From the IMG/VR virus record IMGVR_UViG_3300009132_000016, positions 1-36,326 of that record: a stretch of 36,326 bases of DNA, one strand, 5' to 3'. This document shows positions 1,117 through 35,089 of the stretch, one piece after another; positions within the stretch are counted from its first letter, which is position 1, and each line of letters starts with the position of its first letter. The notes under the pieces are model-generated. The model did not search any database and had not been told where the DNA came from. It saw nothing but the letters and a program-made list of their open reading frames with translations. Origin of the DNA: a virus. The position numbers and the translations under genes were made by a program.

Positions 1117-1190
1117 ACTATCACCTGATTGCGTCCGGCTACGCCTGTAAGTCGTTTCACTATCATTTGATTGCGGCCGCCTATAATACT
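1117..1190 (+). promoter_or_regulatory. Repeated ACTATCA elements, candidate phage or early promoters before the RNA polymerase
   Basis: Two copies of a composite element lie 42 bases apart: ACTATCA at 1117 followed by TGATTGCGTCCGGCTAC (1126-1142), and ACTATCA at 1159 followed by TGATTGCGGCCGCCTA (1168-1183). The bases before the second copy, TAAGTCGTTTCACTATC (1148-1164), resemble the T7 promoter core TAATACGACTCACTATA. A TATAAT string is at 1182-1187. The same composite element recurs at 35043-35077. The position between a terminator and the polymerase gene supports a promoter or operator, but no transcript start can be read from sequence. Confidence 0.45.
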
Positions 1191-1228: not shown

Positions 1229-3646
1229 ATGGCCCAAATCACGCAAGAAGAACTGAATAATTCAATGGTAACTCTTGGCATTGGGCGTTACCGAGCAAAG
1301 ATAGAGAGCGCTAAAGGCCGGGACGCCGAGATGGAAACTAGATACGGCCAAACGCTGATGCGTAGCGCCTTGCCTAATTACACCACAAAAATCAGTGAAT
1401 GGCTAGATACCGTAAAAGATTACGCTACGCCAGCTAGATACCAGTTAGAATTACAAACGCTGGAACCTAAAGTGATTGCTTATATCGCTACACGCGCAAT
1501 CATAGACAGCATAACAAAAAAGCGGCCTTTGTCTCAAGTCGCTATTTATCTAGGGGCTAGACTGGAAGACGAAATTCGATGCCGTTTTTTGCTAGAAAAC
1601 AATGAGGAAAAAGGCTCTGGTATTTTGTTGGGAGCTAAACGCAGAAAAGGGTTAAACGCTAAAGTCCGACACATTCGCTCGTCTATGAAAAACGAGGTAA
1701 AGAAAGGTCTCATGCCGGAATTTAAAAAGTGGGCTATTAGAGACAAGGCTAACGCAGGTTTAACAGCCGTAGAGCTTTTCCGTAGCTGCACCGGGTTGAT
1801 TGAATACAACTACGTCCTTGAAAGAGCTGGTAGACGACCGACGCGCTTCGTAGCACCCACCAATGAACTCATAGATTGGATTGAGAACTACAATGACAGC
1901 CGGGAACTTATTGAACCCTTCTGGATGCCTACCGTAGACCTCCCGGAGCCTTGGACGGGTATCTGGAGTGGTGGTTATTCACAGGACGACAGGCTACCTC
2001 CTGTTTGTTTTATCAAGTCTTCTAACATGGACTACCTTCGTTCTATTGACGGAGGGCTTGAAGAATCCATGGAAGCTGTAAACTGCATTCAACAGACTCC
2101 TTGGGAAATAAACTCAGAAGTCAAAAAGGTGTTTGAGTGGGCTTGGGAAAACAATGTAACCATCGGGGACCTTCCAAACCGAAAAGACGAGGAACTACCT
2201 CCCATGCCGAGGGACTTTAAGACCAACAAAGATTCCAATACAAACTGGAGACGAGAGGCTGCTAAAATATACGACATCAATCTATCGACAAAGTCCCGGC
2301 GTCTACTGACCGCAAAAGTTCTTCACCTAGCAAATAAGTTTGAGGGAAGTCGATTCTTCTTTCCTTCCAACGTAGATTGGAGGGGTAGGGTCTACAACAT
2401 TCCGTCCTTCCTAAACATCCAAAACGCTGACCCCTCAAGGGGGTTGTTGAGGTTCTTCCGCTCAGAAAAAGTCCAAACGCCTGAACAAGCGCGGTGGTTG
2501 GCTATTCACGGAGCGAACACCTACGGTAACGACAAGGTGACTCTGGACGAGCGCGTGGAGTGGGCTAACAGCTACGCGGAGGAGGCTCAGTTGATTGCGT
2601 CCGACCCCACCAAACATCTCTCTTGGAAAGACGCCGACAGTCCTTGGCAACACCTCGCGTGGTGCTTTGAATGGGCTGAATACGCACGCACCGGGAAAGT
2701 AAAAACCAAACTACCATGCGCTCAGGATGCTACCAACAACGGCTTACAGCTACTCGCTTGTCTAACACAATGTGAAGAGACAGCATACGCCACCAACGCA
2801 GCGCCTACTCCAGCTCCACAGGACATCTATGCGGTCATCGCTGCGAGAGCTGTTAGTCAACTACAAAAAGACGCTGATTCTGGTAATGTAATAGCTCGTA
2901 AATGGTTGTCTTTTGGCGTTGACAGAAAAGCCACAAAGCGACCCACCATGGTATATCCGTATGGAGGCACATTCTACTCATGTCGCGCCTACATTGACGA
3001 ATGGTATCAGGACAGATTACGAAAAGAACACGCCGACAATCCCTTCAGCGAATCCGAGCGCTTCAAGGTCACTGGCTACCTTTCTAAGTTTATTTGGAGA
3101 GCCATTCAGGACGTGTTTGATAAGCCGACCAAGTGTATGCAATACCTACAAGGAGTAGCTAAAGTATTGACGCGAGCCGGGAAGGACGTGAAGTGGACAA
3201 GCCCTTCAGGTTTCCCGGTGTTGCAGCACTACACCAAGCAAACATCGAAGTCAGTTTCAACCAAGATTGCAGGGGAGGCAACGTGGGTAAACTTCCGAGA
3301 CAGCACCGACGAACTAAGTGTGGCAAGAGCAAAACAAGGAATTTCTCCAAATTTTGTTCACTCCCTTGATGCGTCCATTTTGACCCGGACTGTGGTTTAC
3401 GCTAACTCACTGGGTATCTACGACTTTGCGTGTATTCACGACTCCTTTGGGACCCACTCAACACGCTCTCAAGAACTCGCAGATTCGATAAGAAAAGCGG
3501 CTTCCGAAATTTTTAGTGTTGACCTCCTTCGAGATTTCGACAATACCTTGCGGCGTTCTGACACAGAGTTAGAATACCCTGAGTTACCTGAGTATGGAAC
3601 ATTCGACCCAACTACGGTCAAACATAGTCAGTATCTCTTCAGTTAA
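1229..3646 (+). CDS. Single-subunit phage DNA-dependent RNA polymerase (T7 gp1 family)
   Basis: This 805-residue enzyme transcribes the replication and late genes from phage-specific promoters. Diagnostic motifs are DWRGRVY (D383 onward), the motif A region with catalytic Asp in AQDATNNG (D500), the motif B region DRKATKRPTMVYPYG (565-579, Arg/Lys of the O helix), PNFVHSLDAS, and motif C with HDSFG (H737, catalytic D738). The C-terminus ends in FS, close to the FA/FAFA foot of T7-type enzymes. T7 gp1 is 883 residues, so this one is somewhat short. The ATG follows the candidate promoter repeats, and the SSB gene follows after 22 bases. Confidence 0.98.
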   Translation: MAQITQEELNNSMVTLGIGRYRAKIESAKGRDAEMETRYGQTLMRSALPNYTTKISEWLDTVKDYATPARYQLELQTLEPKVIAYIATRAIIDSITKKRPLSQVAIYLGARLEDEIRCRFLLENNEEKGSGILLGAKRRKGLNAKVRHIRSSMKNEVKKGLMPEFKKWAIRDKANAGLTAVELFRSCTGLIEYNYVLERAGRRPTRFVAPTNELIDWIENYNDSRELIEPFWMPTVDLPEPWTGIWSGGYSQDDRLPPVCFIKSSNMDYLRSIDGGLEESMEAVNCIQQTPWEINSEVKKVFEWAWENNVTIGDLPNRKDEELPPMPRDFKTNKDSNTNWRREAAKIYDINLSTKSRRLLTAKVLHLANKFEGSRFFFPSNVDWRGRVYNIPSFLNIQNADPSRGLLRFFRSEKVQTPEQARWLAIHGANTYGNDKVTLDERVEWANSYAEEAQLIASDPTKHLSWKDADSPWQHLAWCFEWAEYARTGKVKTKLPCAQDATNNGLQLLACLTQCEETAYATNAAPTPAPQDIYAVIAARAVSQLQKDADSGNVIARKWLSFGVDRKATKRPTMVYPYGGTFYSCRAYIDEWYQDRLRKEHADNPFSESERFKVTGYLSKFIWRAIQDVFDKPTKCMQYLQGVAKVLTRAGKDVKWTSPSGFPVLQHYTKQTSKSVSTKIAGEATWVNFRDSTDELSVARAKQGISPNFVHSLDASILTRTVVYANSLGIYDFACIHDSFGTHSTRSQELADSIRKAASEIFSVDLLRDFDNTLRRSDTELEYPELPEYGTFDPTTVKHSQYLFS

Positions 3647-11135: not shown

Positions 11136-11437
11136 TTGGATTTGTTACTACACCCGAAACCGCCTCTACCGTCACTGATGGTATTCGCGATGCTCAATTA
11201 AGCCGTGGGCAGCACTATTACTGGACTACAGGAGCGGAGCCAATCTATAGCGGAGACAACAAAGGTCAGATGTTTATCCCTGCTGGTGATGAGGTTCTTA
11301 GCACCCCGCTGCGTAACGGATTAACACCCCGCGACTTTCCTGAGTTCGACCAACTGGTCGCCCTTCTTGGAGGACTAGATTCTCGCGTTGAAATCGACCC
11401 TGACTCTTTAATTAACCCAGACATTCCTATTGAATGA
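11132..11437 (+). CDS. Hypothetical protein preceding the portal gene
   Basis: This 101-residue product has a TGAEPIYSGDNKGQMFIPAGDEV stretch followed by TPRDFPEFDQLVALLGGLDSR and an acidic, Asp/Pro-rich tail. It starts at ATG 11132, overlapping the previous stop (ATGA), and its own stop overlaps the portal start in the same way. The coupled layout suggests a head or connector-associated protein made with the portal. No family is recognised. Confidence 0.55.
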   Translation: MIGFVTTPETASTVTDGIRDAQLSRGQHYYWTTGAEPIYSGDNKGQMFIPAGDEVLSTPLRNGLTPRDFPEFDQLVALLGGLDSRVEIDPDSLINPDIPIE

Positions 11438-13002
11438 ACACTTCCGCAGAATCACGCTATAACGCGCTAGAAAGCGAACGCCAGCCTTTCATCGACAGGG
11501 CGAGAGAAGCGTCTAAACTAACTTTACCTTATGTAATGCCCGAAGATGGGCATAATTCACACTCACGGCTATATACACCATTTCAGGGCATTGGAGCAAG
11601 AGGAGTCAACAACTTAGCATCTAAACTACTACTAGCCTTACTCGCTCCCAATGCCCCTTTTTTCCGCCTCAACTTCGACCAAGCTAAGCTCCGCGCTGAA
11701 GGGGCTACTCAAGAAATCATCACAGAGATGGAGTCAGCGCTACAAAGCGTAGAAGACTCCGTGATGGAAGAGATTAGTCGTCAATCCTACCGGGTTGGCG
11801 TTCATGAGGCTCTTAAGAACCTAATCATCACAGGTAACTCGCTCCTGTATATCCCACCAGAGGGAGGACTAAGGGTCTTCCACTTGGACCGCTATGTAAT
11901 CAGCAGGGACCCTATGGGAAACCCTCTGAAAATCATCACTCGGGAGACTCTAAACTACAATACCCTCAACGACGAACTCAAGGCAGCAGCAGGTTACCTA
12001 GAAGGAGAAACCACAGGCAAAAACTGTGATTTGTTTACTTGTGTGGAGTTGGTTGACGATAAGTGGTATGTCCACCAAGAGATTAAAGGTAACGTCATTG
12101 AGAGTTCTATGGGTTCTTTCCCCAAGGACAAACTACCCTACATTCCCCTTCGTTTCTCTAAGATTGATGGGGAAGATTATGGGCGGGGATATGTAGAAGA
12201 ATATCTCGGAGACCTTATCAGCCTAGAGACACTTACTCAAGCTATCGTTGAAGGCTCCGCTGCTGCTGCTAAGGTTCTGTTCTTAGTGAATCCTAACGGC
12301 ACGACGAGGGCTAAGACTCTCGCTGAAAGCCCCAACGGAGCAATCACACAGGGCAACGCTCAAGACGTCTCCGTCCTTCAACTGGACAAGTTCAATGATT
12401 TTAGAATTGCTTCTGACACCGCTAACACAATTAAGGAACGATTAGGACAAGCCTTCCTTCTTACGTCAGGTGTTGTCCGCAACGCAGAGCGTGTAACAGC
12501 CGAGGAAATTCGTATGCTAACTCTGGAGCTTGAGTCATCGTTAGGTGGTCTCTACTCTCTGTTAAGTAACGAGCTACAGCTTCCTATGGTCAACCGGGTC
12601 ATGGGCCTAATGACCGAAGACAAGCGTCTTCCTAAGCTTCCTAAAGACTTGGTCAAGCCTGTAATCATTACGGGTGTTGAGGCTCTTGGACGAGGTAACG
12701 ACCTTCAAAAGTTGGATATGTTCTTGGCTGGTGCTGCGCAAGTCGTAGGTCCTCAAGCTATCGGACAGTTCGTTAAGGTTGATGAATACTTTAAGCGTAG
12801 AGCTACCAGTTTAGGCATCAAGACTGCTGGGTTGATTAAGACTCAGGAAGAGATGCAACAAGAGATGCAACAAGCTCAAATGATGGAGATGGCTTCTAAA
12901 GCTGCTCCACAAGGAGTCGCTGCTCTAGGCAACATTGCCCGAGACGCAGCAGCAGCCCCGCCTGAAGAAGCTCCCCCGGAAGAATCACAACAACAACCGT
13001 AA
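11434..13002 (+). CDS. Portal (head-tail connector) protein, T7 gp8-like
   Basis: The 522-residue protein forms the dodecameric ring through which DNA is packaged and ejected. Its N-terminus (ESERQPFIDRAREASKLTLP, then TPFQGIGARGVNNLASKL) is the classic T7-like connector signature. The size is close to T7 gp8 (536). The middle has SLETLTQAIVEGSAAAAK, and the tail is Gln/Met/Ala rich (QEEMQQEMQQ). It is coupled to the upstream gene by an ATGA overlap, and the scaffold gene starts 3 bases after its stop. Confidence 0.95.
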   Translation: MNTSAESRYNALESERQPFIDRAREASKLTLPYVMPEDGHNSHSRLYTPFQGIGARGVNNLASKLLLALLAPNAPFFRLNFDQAKLRAEGATQEIITEMESALQSVEDSVMEEISRQSYRVGVHEALKNLIITGNSLLYIPPEGGLRVFHLDRYVISRDPMGNPLKIITRETLNYNTLNDELKAAAGYLEGETTGKNCDLFTCVELVDDKWYVHQEIKGNVIESSMGSFPKDKLPYIPLRFSKIDGEDYGRGYVEEYLGDLISLETLTQAIVEGSAAAAKVLFLVNPNGTTRAKTLAESPNGAITQGNAQDVSVLQLDKFNDFRIASDTANTIKERLGQAFLLTSGVVRNAERVTAEEIRMLTLELESSLGGLYSLLSNELQLPMVNRVMGLMTEDKRLPKLPKDLVKPVIITGVEALGRGNDLQKLDMFLAGAAQVVGPQAIGQFVKVDEYFKRRATSLGIKTAGLIKTQEEMQQEMQQAQMMEMASKAAPQGVAALGNIARDAAAAPPEEAPPEESQQQP

Positions 13003-28356: not shown

Positions 28357-29439
28357 ATGCCAAATTCATATACTACAATAACCCTGCTATCTGGGTCCAG
28401 CGGAACTAACGCCTCAGGCCAGACAGTGTATGGTCCGTTTGACTTCGATTACATTAACACTTCTGACATCAAAGCAGTCGTGAAGATGACATCTGGCTCT
28501 ACTTTCAAATGGCAAAGTGTTTCGGTTGCAAGTGTTGACGCCACGACGAAGTTAGTGACTCTATCTGCAAACCTGTATTTCTCAGATGTTCTTGACCAAA
28601 TGCGAATCTACAGGGAAACCTCACTTAGTTCTCTAGTTGACTTCCAGTCTGGTTCTCGTATCTCCGAGGCTGACTTAGACACCGCTTACAGACAGGCGTT
28701 GTTTGTTGCTCAGGAGACTGCTGAAGACGGCTCAGGAAGTGGAACAAGAACACTCCAAACGGCTGATGACATCGCGAGTGGAGCAATAACCGCCGCTGAG
28801 TTAGCTACTGACGCCGTCGAGACTGCTAAAATTAAAGACGTAAACGTGACAGCAGGTAAGCTAGCTACCGACGCCGTGGAGACAGCTAAAATCAAAGACC
28901 TAAACGTTACCGCTGCTAAGCTGGCTGCTGACGCTGCCGAGACTGCTAAGATTAAAGACGGTGCGGTCACAGCTCCCAAGCTGGCCTCGACGTTAGACTT
29001 GTCAGGAAATACTTTGACCTTTCCTTCGGGTGGTATTGTTCAAGGTGAGGTGGACACTGCAACAAAAACCGAAATGGAAACCGAGGCGTCTGCGGGTATC
29101 TGTGTTCCAGCGACTCTAAAGCACCACCCCGGTGTGGCTGCGGCTTGGGGAATTGTTTCTTTTGACGACAGCTCTCCAGTGTTAGTTGCGGGTTACAACG
29201 TGGCCCTCGGTTCTCCCAGCGAACCTAGCGCTGATACCCGTAGAATCGTCTTCTCAAACAACATGGCAACCGCAAACGGCGCTGACTACGTAGTTTTAAC
29301 AGCTACAGACACAGGGACCTCAAAAAACCACCCGTTCGTGACAAACAAAACGGCTTCTGGCTTTGATTTAGACGTAGATTTTGCGGACGACACAGGTCAC
29401 AGACTTCACTTCGTGGTTTACGGACAACTACAAGCCTAA
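28357..29439 (+). CDS. Tail fibre protein with T7 gp17-type N-terminal domain
   Basis: The 360-residue fibre starts with the T7 fibre anchoring domain: FDFDYINTSDIKAVVK, LYFSDVLDQMRIYRETSL, a FQSGSRISEADLDTAYRQAL segment and FVAQETAEDG. The shaft has three 20-residue repeats (148-207) with the pattern LATDAVETAKIKD. The C-terminal domain (about 240-360) is beta-rich and should bind the host receptor. It is shorter than T7 gp17 (553). The start is 6 bases after gp16, with an A-rich leader. Confidence 0.93.
   Translation: MPNSYTTITLLSGSSGTNASGQTVYGPFDFDYINTSDIKAVVKMTSGSTFKWQSVSVASVDATTKLVTLSANLYFSDVLDQMRIYRETSLSSLVDFQSGSRISEADLDTAYRQALFVAQETAEDGSGSGTRTLQTADDIASGAITAAELATDAVETAKIKDVNVTAGKLATDAVETAKIKDLNVTAAKLAADAAETAKIKDGAVTAPKLASTLDLSGNTLTFPSGGIVQGEVDTATKTEMETEASAGICVPATLKHHPGVAAAWGIVSFDDSSPVLVAGYNVALGSPSEPSADTRRIVFSNNMATANGADYVVLTATDTGTSKNHPFVTNKTASGFDLDVDFADDTGHRLHFVVYGQLQA
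28798..28977 (+). repeat. Three tandem 60-bp repeats in the tail fibre shaft
   Basis: Units at 28798-28857, 28858-28917 and 28918-28977 each encode 20 residues of the form [EK]LAxDAxETAKIKDxxVTAx, with a partial fourth (KLAS). The codons differ between copies although the residues are kept, so the repeat is selected at protein level. Such repeats form a trimeric shaft, and their number can change by recombination. Confidence 0.85.
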
Positions 29440-32503: not shown

Positions 32504-32727
32504 CGCAAGCACACAAGGCCAAGGGACCACGCCACCCACCCTGAACGGCCTGAAGCCAGCCAGCAAGCACGCATGGATACACGCACTATCATCCCCTAGT
32601 ATAACTCAGGGCTCCACGCCGGACGCTCAGAGCTAAGCTCGTTGCGCACTCAATGGGTAATCATTAGTGAGACTAAGGGCGACCCGAGGGTTCGGGCGTT
32701 CTTGTTCTTGCATACGTTTTTTGCATA

Positions 32728-32891: not shown

Positions 32892-32901
32892 TTATTGTTG
32901 T
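32892..32901 (+). promoter_or_regulatory. TTATTGTTGT motif directly before an ATG (copy 1)
   Basis: The ten bases TTATTGTTGT end immediately before the ATG at 32902. Identical copies abut the ATGs at 33126 and 34823. There is no Shine-Dalgarno sequence here. The fixed zero spacing suggests an initiation or promoter signal. Confidence 0.5.
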
Positions 32902-33084
32902 ATGGATAACACCGAACACAAGATGTATCAGACGGAGGCTGACGCCGAGGAGAACGCCAGAGACGACAAGGACCTCGTATACGATGTGTTCCTTGACGAG
33001 CTAATCTCCAAGGAGGAGGTCGAGGGAATCGAAAGGGCCTACGAGGGCCAAGTGGAGCAATGGCTCTACTATCACAACGGTTAG
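32902..33084 (+). CDS. Small acidic protein of unknown function
   Basis: The 60-residue product is rich in Glu/Asp (for example EADAEENARDDKDLVYD) and ends in EQWLYYHNG. Small acidic proteins in the early region of T7-like phages sometimes mimic DNA or block host enzymes; nothing beyond composition supports that here. The ATG at 32902 is chosen because the TTATTGTTGT motif abuts it. A longer frame from 32776 has an unnatural Arg/Pro/Ser-rich N-terminus. An ACTATCA motif lies at 33068 within its last codons, upstream of the next gene. Confidence 0.6.
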   Translation: MDNTEHKMYQTEADAEENARDDKDLVYDVFLDELISKEEVEGIERAYEGQVEQWLYYHNG

Positions 33085-33115
33085 TAGAACACCAGCTCAT
33101 CGAACTCTAACTTAA

Positions 33116-33125
33116 TTATTGTTGT
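33116..33125 (+). promoter_or_regulatory. TTATTGTTGT motif directly before an ATG (copy 2)
   Basis: An exact second copy of the 10-base motif ends at the ATG at 33126. It lies about 40 bases downstream of the ACTATCA at 33068. As at the other copies, no Shine-Dalgarno sequence is present. Confidence 0.5.
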
Positions 33126-33410
33126 ATGGTTAATACATTCCTTAACGTCTGCCGTGTTCTCAACAAGGTGCTAAAGCGCCTTGCAGAAAACTTCATCTGG
33201 TGTCTCGCGATGTGCAGCATTTTCATGCTTCTCATAATCGTCTCGGTTATTCTAATCGGTTCGGGTCCCGAGTTGTTGAACAGCGTAATCCACGGGTGGA
33301 CCGGGCCCGACTTCTTGTTCGTGCTCTTTGCGCCGAGTTTAGTTGGCACCGTGTTGCTGACCATCGGAGACGCGGTAATCCACTATCATTGGGAGGGCCT
33401 ACGGCGCTAA
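33126..33410 (+). CDS. Small two-span membrane protein of unknown function
   Basis: The 94-residue protein has a basic amphipathic N-terminus, a first membrane span over about residues 24-45 (IWCLAMCSIFMLLIIVSVIL), a loop with GPELLNSVIHGW, and a second span over about 62-80 (FLFVLFAPSLVGTVLLTIG). It could alter the host membrane early in infection or exclude other phages. No homologue is recognised. The start is set by the abutting TTATTGTTGT motif. An ACTATCA lies inside its end (33382). Confidence 0.55.
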   Translation: MVNTFLNVCRVLNKVLKRLAENFIWCLAMCSIFMLLIIVSVILIGSGPELLNSVIHGWTGPDFLFVLFAPSLVGTVLLTIGDAVIHYHWEGLRR

Positions 33411-33736
33411 GCGTATGCAGAAAACAACAAGGCGAGCACTGGCAAAAGCTTCCCGTCGCGTAAACTTCAAAACAAGCATAACTCGCTTCGCTTCGGCCTT
33501 CGGCACTTATATTGTTTTAAAGTTGACCCGCCGTCCAGCGTTCGCAAGAGGTCGTTACCTTTTACGGCCTACCAATTCACTCGTTCCTCGTTCCTTGGCT
33601 AGCCGAAAAGCTTTCCTAGAGATGAATTATTTTCATGTTGAAAATGAATCAAACTCATAAAGAATTTAGCAGTTTGTTCTTTACCGTAAAATCTAATTCA
33701 AGTAAGCTCCCAACGGGCAAAGCCCACAACCACAAA
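33411..33736. other. Non-coding stretch with a long hairpin and CTTCG-rich repeats
   Basis: A 20-base arm (33457-33476) pairs imperfectly, about 16 of 20, with 33511-33530. The core AACTTCAAAACAA / TTGTTTTAAAGTT matches 12 of 13. Its loop holds CGCTTCGCTTCGGCCTTCGG. Further on come short tandem CTCGTTC copies (near 33579-33592) and a TAGCCGAAAAGC segment. A + strand frame crosses 33415-33660 but has repeat-driven, low-complexity residues and is not accepted as a gene. The next ATG (33737) has an A-rich leader. Confidence 0.45.
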
Positions 33737-34006
33737 ATGAAAACCATAGAAATCCAACTAGTCGAAGTAAGCGCAGGAATTAAAACCCGCACTGGAAATG
33801 CCACTCTTTACAAAGGGTGGAGCGAAAGTGAAAAGACCATGCTTTCGGTATGGTCCGACGACAAAAAGCCTAATCCCTTTCTAAAGGGGAAAGGAATTGC
33901 CGACTTCGTGCGCGTTGTCGAAGAAGTCCGCGAAGAGTCCGACTTGAACGGAAATAAAGTCACAAAGACATTCCACACCGTCATTCCCAGCGCTCCGCAG
34001 TCATGA
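33737..34006 (+). CDS. Hypothetical protein
   Basis: This 89-residue product has alternating strands and charged loops (KTIEIQLVEVSAGIK, TLYKGWSESEKTMLSVWSDD) and a C-terminal segment DFVRVVEEVREE, with no catalytic motif. No family is recognised. The ATG at 33737 follows ACCACAAA and lies past the non-coding repeats. Earlier in-frame ATGs at 33635 and 33644 would add a low-quality N-terminus. The stop overlaps the next start (ATGA at 34003-34006), so the pair is probably co-translated. Confidence 0.5.
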   Translation: MKTIEIQLVEVSAGIKTRTGNATLYKGWSESEKTMLSVWSDDKKPNPFLKGKGIADFVRVVEEVREESDLNGNKVTKTFHTVIPSAPQS

Positions 34007-34596
34007 AGGTCGCAGCCCCTACACCCTTCCAAGCCGCCCTTTTGGGGCGTGCCTTGGAGGCAACCAAATTCACCGAGCAAAGAAAAGCGCTCTGGCGTGC
34101 CGTGTTCCAACAAGCCAAGGCCACAGTCAAGGCTTACAACCTCTCTAGGCCAGTCGAAGACCTCGTTTCTTACTGGCTCGATATTCAACCAGAGCCGGAA
34201 GAGTCTAACAACATTGCCCTAGACGACCTACAGACCGGCTTCAAGACCATCGCGCAGGAGTCTGGCGCTGTCGTCGTGCCCCTCGAATCCCTTGAGGAAT
34301 ACGGAGACACATGGCAGGAAGCCCCCGAAGACACACGCAAGGGCCGACTATCATCCTCACTTCAATGGAAGCGCGACCCGCACGGAGTAACCGAACGTGC
34401 CCACCTCCCTCGCTGGTGTGACGGGACAAGCAACCCAGACGAGGAAGCCCACCTCGAACCGGCGTTTAACGGATTCGAAGGATTGACACCGCTAGCTGCA
34501 GACACTCCAAGAGCGCGTTACTATCAGACAAAACGCCTAAGAGAACGCATAGCCAAGCGCCAAGCCGGGACACAATCCCAGGCCGGGAAACACTAA
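34003..34596 (+). CDS. Hypothetical protein, helical N-terminus and basic C-terminus
   Basis: The 197-residue product has an Ala/Lys-rich helical N-terminal third (FQAALLGRALEATKFTEQRK, then AVFQQAKATVKAYNL), an acidic middle and a Lys/Arg-rich tail (YYQTKRLRERIAKRQ). No family is recognised. Its GC-rich codon choice differs from the A-rich genes at 35.1-36.3 kb. It is coupled to the upstream gene by an ATGA overlap and followed 6 bases later by a long hairpin. ACTATCA motifs occur within it at 34347 and 34520. Confidence 0.5.
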   Translation: MKVAAPTPFQAALLGRALEATKFTEQRKALWRAVFQQAKATVKAYNLSRPVEDLVSYWLDIQPEPEESNNIALDDLQTGFKTIAQESGAVVVPLESLEEYGDTWQEAPEDTRKGRLSSSLQWKRDPHGVTERAHLPRWCDGTSNPDEEAHLEPAFNGFEGLTPLAADTPRARYYQTKRLRERIAKRQAGTQSQAGKH

Positions 34597-34602
34597 AAAC
34601 CA

Positions 34603-34637
34603 GCCCCCTTAATGCAACTAACTTGCGTTAAGGGGGC
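34603..34637. terminator. Long hairpin after the 34003 gene, possible terminator
   Basis: A 15-bp stem pairs GCCCCCTTAATGCAA (34603-34617) with TTGCGTTAAGGGGGC (34623-34637); the single non-Watson-Crick pair is a G-U wobble. The loop is 5 bases. On the + strand it is followed by AAAAAATTTT rather than a clean T-run. On the - strand it is followed by GGTTTTTAG. It may terminate in either direction or act as an mRNA-protecting end. Confidence 0.5.
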
Positions 34638-34812
34638 AAAAAATTTTCCCTCGGCTTCGCCTCGGGTTATCTTGCGACTTCGTCGGAATGTAAAAAAATT
34701 TTTCCGCCTTCGGCGGAGAATCTTCGCCTCCTATCGTCGGCCTGTAAAAATCAATCTAGCCTCCTATCGTCGGGCTTATGTTAGATGACTATCGTCAGTT
34801 AATTGTGTTTGT
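34638..34812. other. Non-coding region with hairpins and GCCTCCTATCGTCGG repeats
   Basis: After the long hairpin come two A/T tracts (34638-34647 and 34692-34702), each followed by a small GC hairpin (CGGC-TTC-GCC, then TCCGCC-TTC-GGCGGA at 34702-34716). A 15-base direct repeat GCCTCCTATCGTCGG follows at 34726-34740 and 34759-34773, and a related ACTATCGTCAG at 34788-34798 lies about 25 bases before the ATG at 34823. The CTATCGTC units resemble the ACTATCA motif and may be operator or promoter sites. Confidence 0.45.
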
Positions 34813-34822
34813 TTATTGTTGT
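34813..34822 (+). promoter_or_regulatory. TTATTGTTGT motif directly before an ATG (copy 3)
   Basis: A third exact copy of the 10-base motif ends at the ATG at 34823. The downstream sequence may be a small gene or a structured repeat transcript, so this copy helps decide what the motif marks. Confidence 0.5.
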
Positions 34823-35089
34823 ATGCTTATGGTTTCACACAGAACTCAAGGTGCACGCCTCGCGGAAAACAACGCGACAAGTAAAAAGACGGGTCTCTGG
34901 AAGACATCGAAGCAAGCCTTCGGAGGGCGACGCGCCAAGCCTCGCGGAGGACATCGCTACAAGTCTCAAGAAAAGTATATGAAGAACAACGTGGAAAGCC
35001 TAGCGGAGGGCGACGCTGTGGGTCCTAGCGGGGGGGCCCGGGACTATCATGATTGCGTCCGGCTACACTATCACCTGCTTACCAACTAG
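34823..35089 (+). CDS. Doubtful small basic protein overlying a tandem DNA repeat
   Basis: An 88-residue frame starts at the ATG that abuts the TTATTGTTGT motif, which favours a real start. Against coding: the frame runs through an 82-base tandem repeat whose unit is not a multiple of three, so the two copies are read in different frames and give unrelated residues (RLAENNATS versus RGGHRYKS). The tail also crosses the ACTATCA elements. It may be a fortuitous frame over a non-coding RNA or DNA structure. No family is recognised. Confidence 0.3.
   Translation: MLMVSHRTQGARLAENNATSKKTGLWKTSKQAFGGRRAKPRGGHRYKSQEKYMKNNVESLAEGDAVGPSGGARDYHDCVRLHYHLLTN
34857..35034. repeat. Tandem repeat of about 82 bases with nested small hairpins
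   Basis: Copy A spans 34857-34938 and copy B 34939-35023; a third start (CCTAGCGG) is at 35024. Each copy opens with GCCTCGCGGA..AC.(A/T)CGC.ACAAGT and closes with GCCT.CGGAGGGCGACGC. By eye identity is about 70 percent. The openings and closings share the hairpin-forming pattern CCT..CGGAGG, giving hits at 34857, 34916, 34939 and 34998 with spacings 59, 23 and 59. This is DNA- or RNA-level conservation, not protein-level. Confidence 0.65.
35043..35080 (+). promoter_or_regulatory. Second site of the ACTATCA composite element
   Basis: ACTATCA at 35043-35049 is followed by TGATTGCGTCCGGCTAC (35050-35066), identical over 17 bases to 1126-1142. Then ACTATCACCTG (35067-35077) is identical over 11 bases to 1117-1127. 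It lies 37 bases before the ATG at 35114, as the first site lies before the RNA polymerase gene. Promoter or operator function is inferred from this shared placement. Confidence 0.5.

Follow-up and report, generated by a model that had tools for sequence, protein, structure and literature searches.

Early region and a motif repeated at start codons

The stretch analyzed here (the window) is a virus contig of 36,326 bases; it is an autographivirus (T7-like) record, and its virus is a marine T7-like one. A T7-like single-subunit RNA polymerase gene on the plus strand (1229 to 3646; Pfam RNA_pol, 4e-87; phrog_414) marks the end of the early region, and other products encoded in the window are a T7-like SSB, a primase-helicase, a family A DNA polymerase, a head-tail adaptor, a major head protein, and TerL, by which the nearest named genome is the uncultured MedDCM-OCT-S45-C18 (71%). 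We took as early the stretch from the end of TerL (31683) across the contig ends to the beginning of the polymerase gene (1229). When this region was compared with named phages by blastn, TerL was the sole match, and an Rfam search of the region found no family. Between the late genes and the first motif copy described below lies a terminator-like hairpin with a T-rich run (32683 to 32706, plus strand), which is weak, the terminator scan overall being within the chance count.

The window holds exactly three copies of the 10-mer TTATTGTTGT, at 32892 to 32901, 33116 to 33125, and 34813 to 34822, all of them on the plus strand and in the early region, with TerL on one side and the phage RNA polymerase gene on the other. 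All three copies have T at position -3 and are followed directly by ATG, so that the 13-mer TTATTGTTGTATG is likewise present three times. The original prediction had described these three identical copies ending at an ATG, and it is exact; it was also right that such a 10-mer is expected far less than once, since dinucleotide shuffles give an expectation of 0.15 copies and none of 100 shuffles reached three. Its argument that the zero spacing is hard to obtain by chance stands as well: by chance, a T has an ATG right behind it about 1.2% of the time, which puts three of three at about 2e-6, on top of the rarity in copy number. Allowing up to two mismatches, TTATTGTTGTATG has one further match in the window, on the minus strand at 28369, and no plus-strand match to TTATTGTTGT was found outside the early region, that is, at middle or late genes. 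An unbiased k-mer screen covering the 5.6 kb of early DNA ranked the motif's four overlapping 10-mers first in over-representation among 10-mers (log10 p of about -7.2), a value that alone is borderline given about 1e6 possible 10-mers. This borderline figure is what speaks for three unrelated 10-mers being identical by chance; that explanation is extremely improbable in view of the ATG contact in all three copies and of the conservation in four related genomes (L006, L009, L027, and L036), which is independent support for the motif being real.

Copy 1 (32892 to 32904 including the ATG) is embedded in TAACTTATTGTTGTATG and opens gene 1, which encodes 60 amino acids (32902 to 33084, plus strand). 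Its homologue in the sister genome L006 has 55 amino acids and a different N terminus behind the same leader; in the C-terminal block of 25 codons, 10 differ synonymously, 8 differ nonsynonymously, and 7 are identical. Copy 2 (33116 to 33128), embedded in TAACTTAATTATTGTTGTATG, opens gene 2 (33126 to 33410, plus strand), which encodes a small hydrophobic protein of 94 amino acids with 77% identity to its L006 counterpart over residues 12 to 88. Searches of Pfam and PHROGs with genes 1 and 2 and with the frame behind copy 3 (ORF3) found no family, and protein-based scans added almost no contigs to those already known, whether run with gene 2, with a 197-amino-acid protein, or with the first early gene of L027 or of L018. 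Genes 1 and 2 are real, as seen from their L006 homologues, from which they differ chiefly at third codon positions; the two appear unrelated to each other, yet the motif stands in front of both.

The third of the predicted gene starts did not fare as well. Copy 3 (34813 to 34825, plus strand; L006 counterpart at 12752) lies in a conserved noncoding leader (34720 to 34855, plus strand) that contains two copies of GCCTCCTATCGTCGG and is nearly identical in L006, unlike the frame that follows. That frame, ORF3 (88 amino acids; 34823 to 35089, plus strand), starts with the ATG at 34823, and its first 11 codons are kept in L006 with two differences, at third positions only; the remainder is unrelated, the common 3' DNA being read in different frames. 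ORF3 is therefore doubtful as a protein gene, and we regard it as a short leader frame or as noncoding. A separate element, a 15-bp inverted repeat (GCCCCCTTAATGCAA / TTGCGTTAAGGGGGC) followed by AAAAAATTTT, lies at 34603 to 34637, after the gene for the 197-amino-acid protein; it is kept in L006, and a called ORF (34612 to 34788) begins inside it.

The motif in related genomes

A scan with TerL yielded 80 related loci. The sisters reaching far into the early region are L006, L009, and L104 only; L007, L008, L010, and L011 end before it. TTATTGTTGTATG is found three times in L006 (TerL 98%), each time at a start, and once in L009 (TerL 97%); the leader of gene 1 recurs at 11062 in L006 and at 3946 in L009, and copy 2 has its L006 equivalent at 11241. 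The exact motif sites known are seven only, from three closely related genomes, and common descent accounts for part of their identity. At the first early gene of L027 and L036 (TerL 84 to 85%) we found TTGTTGTATG, for which 0.02 and 0.14 matches, respectively, were expected at the tolerance used, and looser forms stand at the first early gene of L016 to L018, e.g., TTGTTTGTATG. In L104, whose polymerase is 84% identical to that of the window, the place syntenic to copy 3 reads TTTATTGTTGTAG-ATG, the same 12-mer lying 2 nt further from the ATG. Thus, the motif-ATG unit that the original prediction suggested looking for in related phages is kept in L006 and L009 and, as TTGTTGTATG, in L027 and L036, while in L104 its spacing is off by 2 nt.

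That the contact with the start codon outlasts changes in the coding sequence can be read directly from gene 2, which begins with MVNTFLNVCRVLNKVLKRLAENF in the window and with the shorter MKRLIKRLCENF in L006, the motif adjoining the ATG in both. The 13 codons between KRL and the next Met carry 5 synonymous changes and 1 nonsynonymous change between the two genomes, and in the L006 sequence an upstream TGA closes the frame; this coding constraint, together with the TGA, makes the motif's ATG the start of gene 2 and places it inside the mRNA. Moreover, from the stop of gene 1 to the start of gene 2, L006 reads TAA-C-TTATTGTTGT-ATG, so that the motif and one C make up the entire 11-nt spacer.

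The presence or absence of gene 1 is equally precise. L009 lacks gene 1, the gap falling exactly between two motif copies, and its leader 1 continues without a break into a start like that of gene 2 (27 nt at 92.6%). Recombination between copies accounts for the gain or loss of gene 1 and could lie behind much of the copies' identity, and to this extent the suggestion of a mobile gene-start cassette finds partial support. One could go further and regard the whole repeat as a by-product of duplication and homologous recombination, in which one leader of about 17 to 21 nt (TAACTTATTGTTGTATG) was copied along with inserted genes and has not decayed, its only function being to provide homology for recombination. 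Besides the L009 deletion, this would fit with copies 1 and 2 being alike beyond the 10-mer (TAACTT upstream and GG.TAA.AC downstream) and with the 17 nt that the two have in common in L006. However, the flanks of copy 3 and of the L027, L036, and L104 sites have diverged around the motif while TTGTTGTA is retained, and decay would not be expected to halt at an ATG, which makes this explanation somewhat unlikely.

Searched for in all viral contigs, the 17-mer TAACTTATTGTTGTATG was present in L006, L009, and L089 (the same phage) and in five further contigs. When the DNA query was an extended form of copy 3, at least 120 contigs were returned, and homology to the window among those listed was confined to already known contigs or unrelated matches, which suggests that the motif by itself does not mark starts in general.

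A promoter, a regulator site, or a start for ribosomes

The original prediction had considered the motif as a promoter from which transcripts would start at or just past the ATG. There are reasons to look for one: TATTGT is similar to a -10 hexamer, T7-family promoters end in TAT or TATA before the +1 G, and the phage-specific promoters of the T7-like phage LUZ100, which are 17 bp long and also lie upstream of middle and late genes, end in TATGG (PMC10134795). Like the motif, these are short repeated elements in an autographivirus; in contrast to them, the motif stands at early starts only, and its ATG must itself be transcribed. We found no more sigma-70 -35/-10 pairs than expected (3, versus 3.9 in shuffles), and the Bacteroidota -7 box TAnnTTTG was not found on the plus strand of the early region. 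TATTGT is separated from the ATG by only 3 nt, the middle and late genes, which need a phage polymerase promoter, have no copies, and both the coding constraint right behind the gene 2 ATG and the 11-nt stop-to-start gap in L006 are at odds with leaderless or truncated transcripts. Whether read by a host σ factor (leaderless or of the Bacteroidota type) or by the T7-like phage polymerase, a -10-type promoter is thus very unlikely, and this part of the prediction is not supported.

At the ribosome, the statement that motif genes have no Shine-Dalgarno (SD) sequence is true (the match at motif starts is 3 nt only), yet the same holds for almost the entire phage, in which SD matches of at least 4 nt occur at 8 of 31 starts versus 10.2 at random positions. 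Usage that is not above chance at these 31 starts suggests a host from a non-SD bacterial group.

We favor, with a probability of about 0.5, the reading that TTATTGTTGT-ATG serves a narrow lineage of marine T7-like phages as a start-associated leader, acting at SD-independent translation initiation of small early genes. A promoter is the less likely role for the repeat, which probably signals ribosomes where to start or is at least a leader common to these genes. It would belong to the mRNA leader of these genes and act as the translation initiation region, or part of it, where phage and host do not use SD pairing; the U-rich stretch touching the AUG would serve to load the ribosome or set its position, perhaps through protein S1. 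Leader and ATG would form a repeated unit, and recombination between copies would gain and lose genes and spread the leader to new ones. We infer the translational action, and its manner, from the way in which the motif stays in contact with the start codon when the coding sequence behind it changes, and from its use as a full intergenic gap. For the same reasons, an SD-independent initiation signal is the best fit among the three ideas originally put forward, with copy 3 and the L104 shift counting against it.

These two observations deserve weight, as they indicate that the motif has been retained at the copy 3 locus although no clear gene follows it there. They also make a serious rival of the view that a regulator of phage or host origin (a protein or a small RNA) binds here, on the early mRNA or the leader DNA, the overlap of its site with the start codon permitting translational or transcriptional repression: conservation at copy 3 covers more than 100 nt of the leader and is not matched by the frame that follows, as in a regulatory leader, and L104 retains the 12-mer without the zero spacing. 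We nevertheless consider a regulator site unlikely, because the motif contains no palindrome, Rfam has no matching family, and folding of 17 leaders revealed no structure or hairpin common to the copies. Two further points stand against the preferred reading of a translational leader: the motif regions in the window are predicted to be no more accessible (0.42 to 0.63 unpaired) than the phage's other starts (mean of 0.63), and the motif has T at -3, where the Kozak-like preference of Flavobacterium is for A (PMC6847099). A stronger form of that reading seems quite unlikely, namely that UUAUUGUUGU directly on the AUG would be a start signal in its own right, specific in sequence and independent of SD, by which a phage or host factor would single out early genes for translation and which would make these genes exchangeable as leader-start modules.

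Among known systems, the Start-Associated Sequences (SAS) of Cluster K mycobacteriophages are the closest precedent. SAS are 13-bp asymmetric repeats (GGGATAGGAGCCC) with an SD core, 3 to 7 bp from the start and in many copies per genome; they lie in one orientation at the starts of different non-structural genes, and their position suggests a role in translation initiation (PMC3203893). The motif (10 to 13 bp) is likewise short, asymmetric, and confined to starts in the non-structural part of the genome, with three of three copies on the plus strand and early only, as also in L006 and L009, and an upstream stop codon can overlap the SAS unit as it does the motif in L006. In contrast to SAS, the motif is U-rich, lacks an SD sequence, touches the ATG, and has three copies; with a different sequence and zero spacing in place of GGGATAGGAGCCC and its SD core, it bears no sequence relation to SAS and is not a member of that family. 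Initiation regions of Bacteroidia, in which S1 with A/U-rich RNA is proposed as a substitute for SD pairing (PMC6847099), share with the proposed role of the motif the lack of such pairing. They are, however, defined by a compositional bias, A at -3 being among the measured positive determinants in Flavobacterium (PMC6847099), whereas the motif is an exact repeat, and the T at -3 in all its copies does not match a Kozak-like context. Phages of non-SD hosts must mark their ribosome starts otherwise, and an exact repeat touching the start codon would give a handle on that signal. While start-associated repeats are known from some mycobacteriophages, what would be new here is a U-rich, SD-less sequence in contact with the ATG, in a concrete case of leader-start units between which small early genes are gained or lost.

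Strand-biased ACTATCA sites

Another short sequence, ACTATCA, is found only on the plus strand of the window (positions 24, 1117, 1159, 5361, 16622, 32585, 33068, 33382, 34347, 34520, 35043, 35067, 35784, and 36174), with 12 sites on that strand of the early region versus 0.53 expected and none on the minus strand of the window; no single-base variant is enriched. The same one-strand bias is seen in L104, L113, L006, L036, L125, L130, and others. Over 157 loci, the minority strands sum to 4 of 347 sites versus about 100 expected, counted over loci that share ancestry and sites that are not independent, and the preferred strand varies between lineages. In eight genomes the ratio was 54:0 in the early region and 28:0 in the remainder. 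Sites are also one-sided in the Pelagibacter phages HTVC011P (16:0) and HTVC025P (7:0), and the bias was not seen in HTVC120P and MedDCM-OCT-S42-C7. A reversed-sequence control is void for this element because ACTATCA is identical when read backwards.

The polarity of ACTATCA is statistically stronger than the start-motif finding. It is suggestive of an orientation rule of the kind linked to type III restriction, or of some other polar DNA signal. T7 escapes the type III enzyme EcoP15 through sites in one orientation (PMC3874151); such an escape does not explain the enrichment in the early region. ACTATCA is also part of a composite, ACTATCAYn(n)TGATTGCGTCCGCCTA, that precedes the phage RNA polymerase gene in two copies (window positions 1117 to 1190) and is found once at the end of ORF3 (35043 to 35075), as well as in L104 (1752 to 1785 and 6285 to 6340) and L101 (1109 to 1180), and this composite is a candidate phage promoter or operator.
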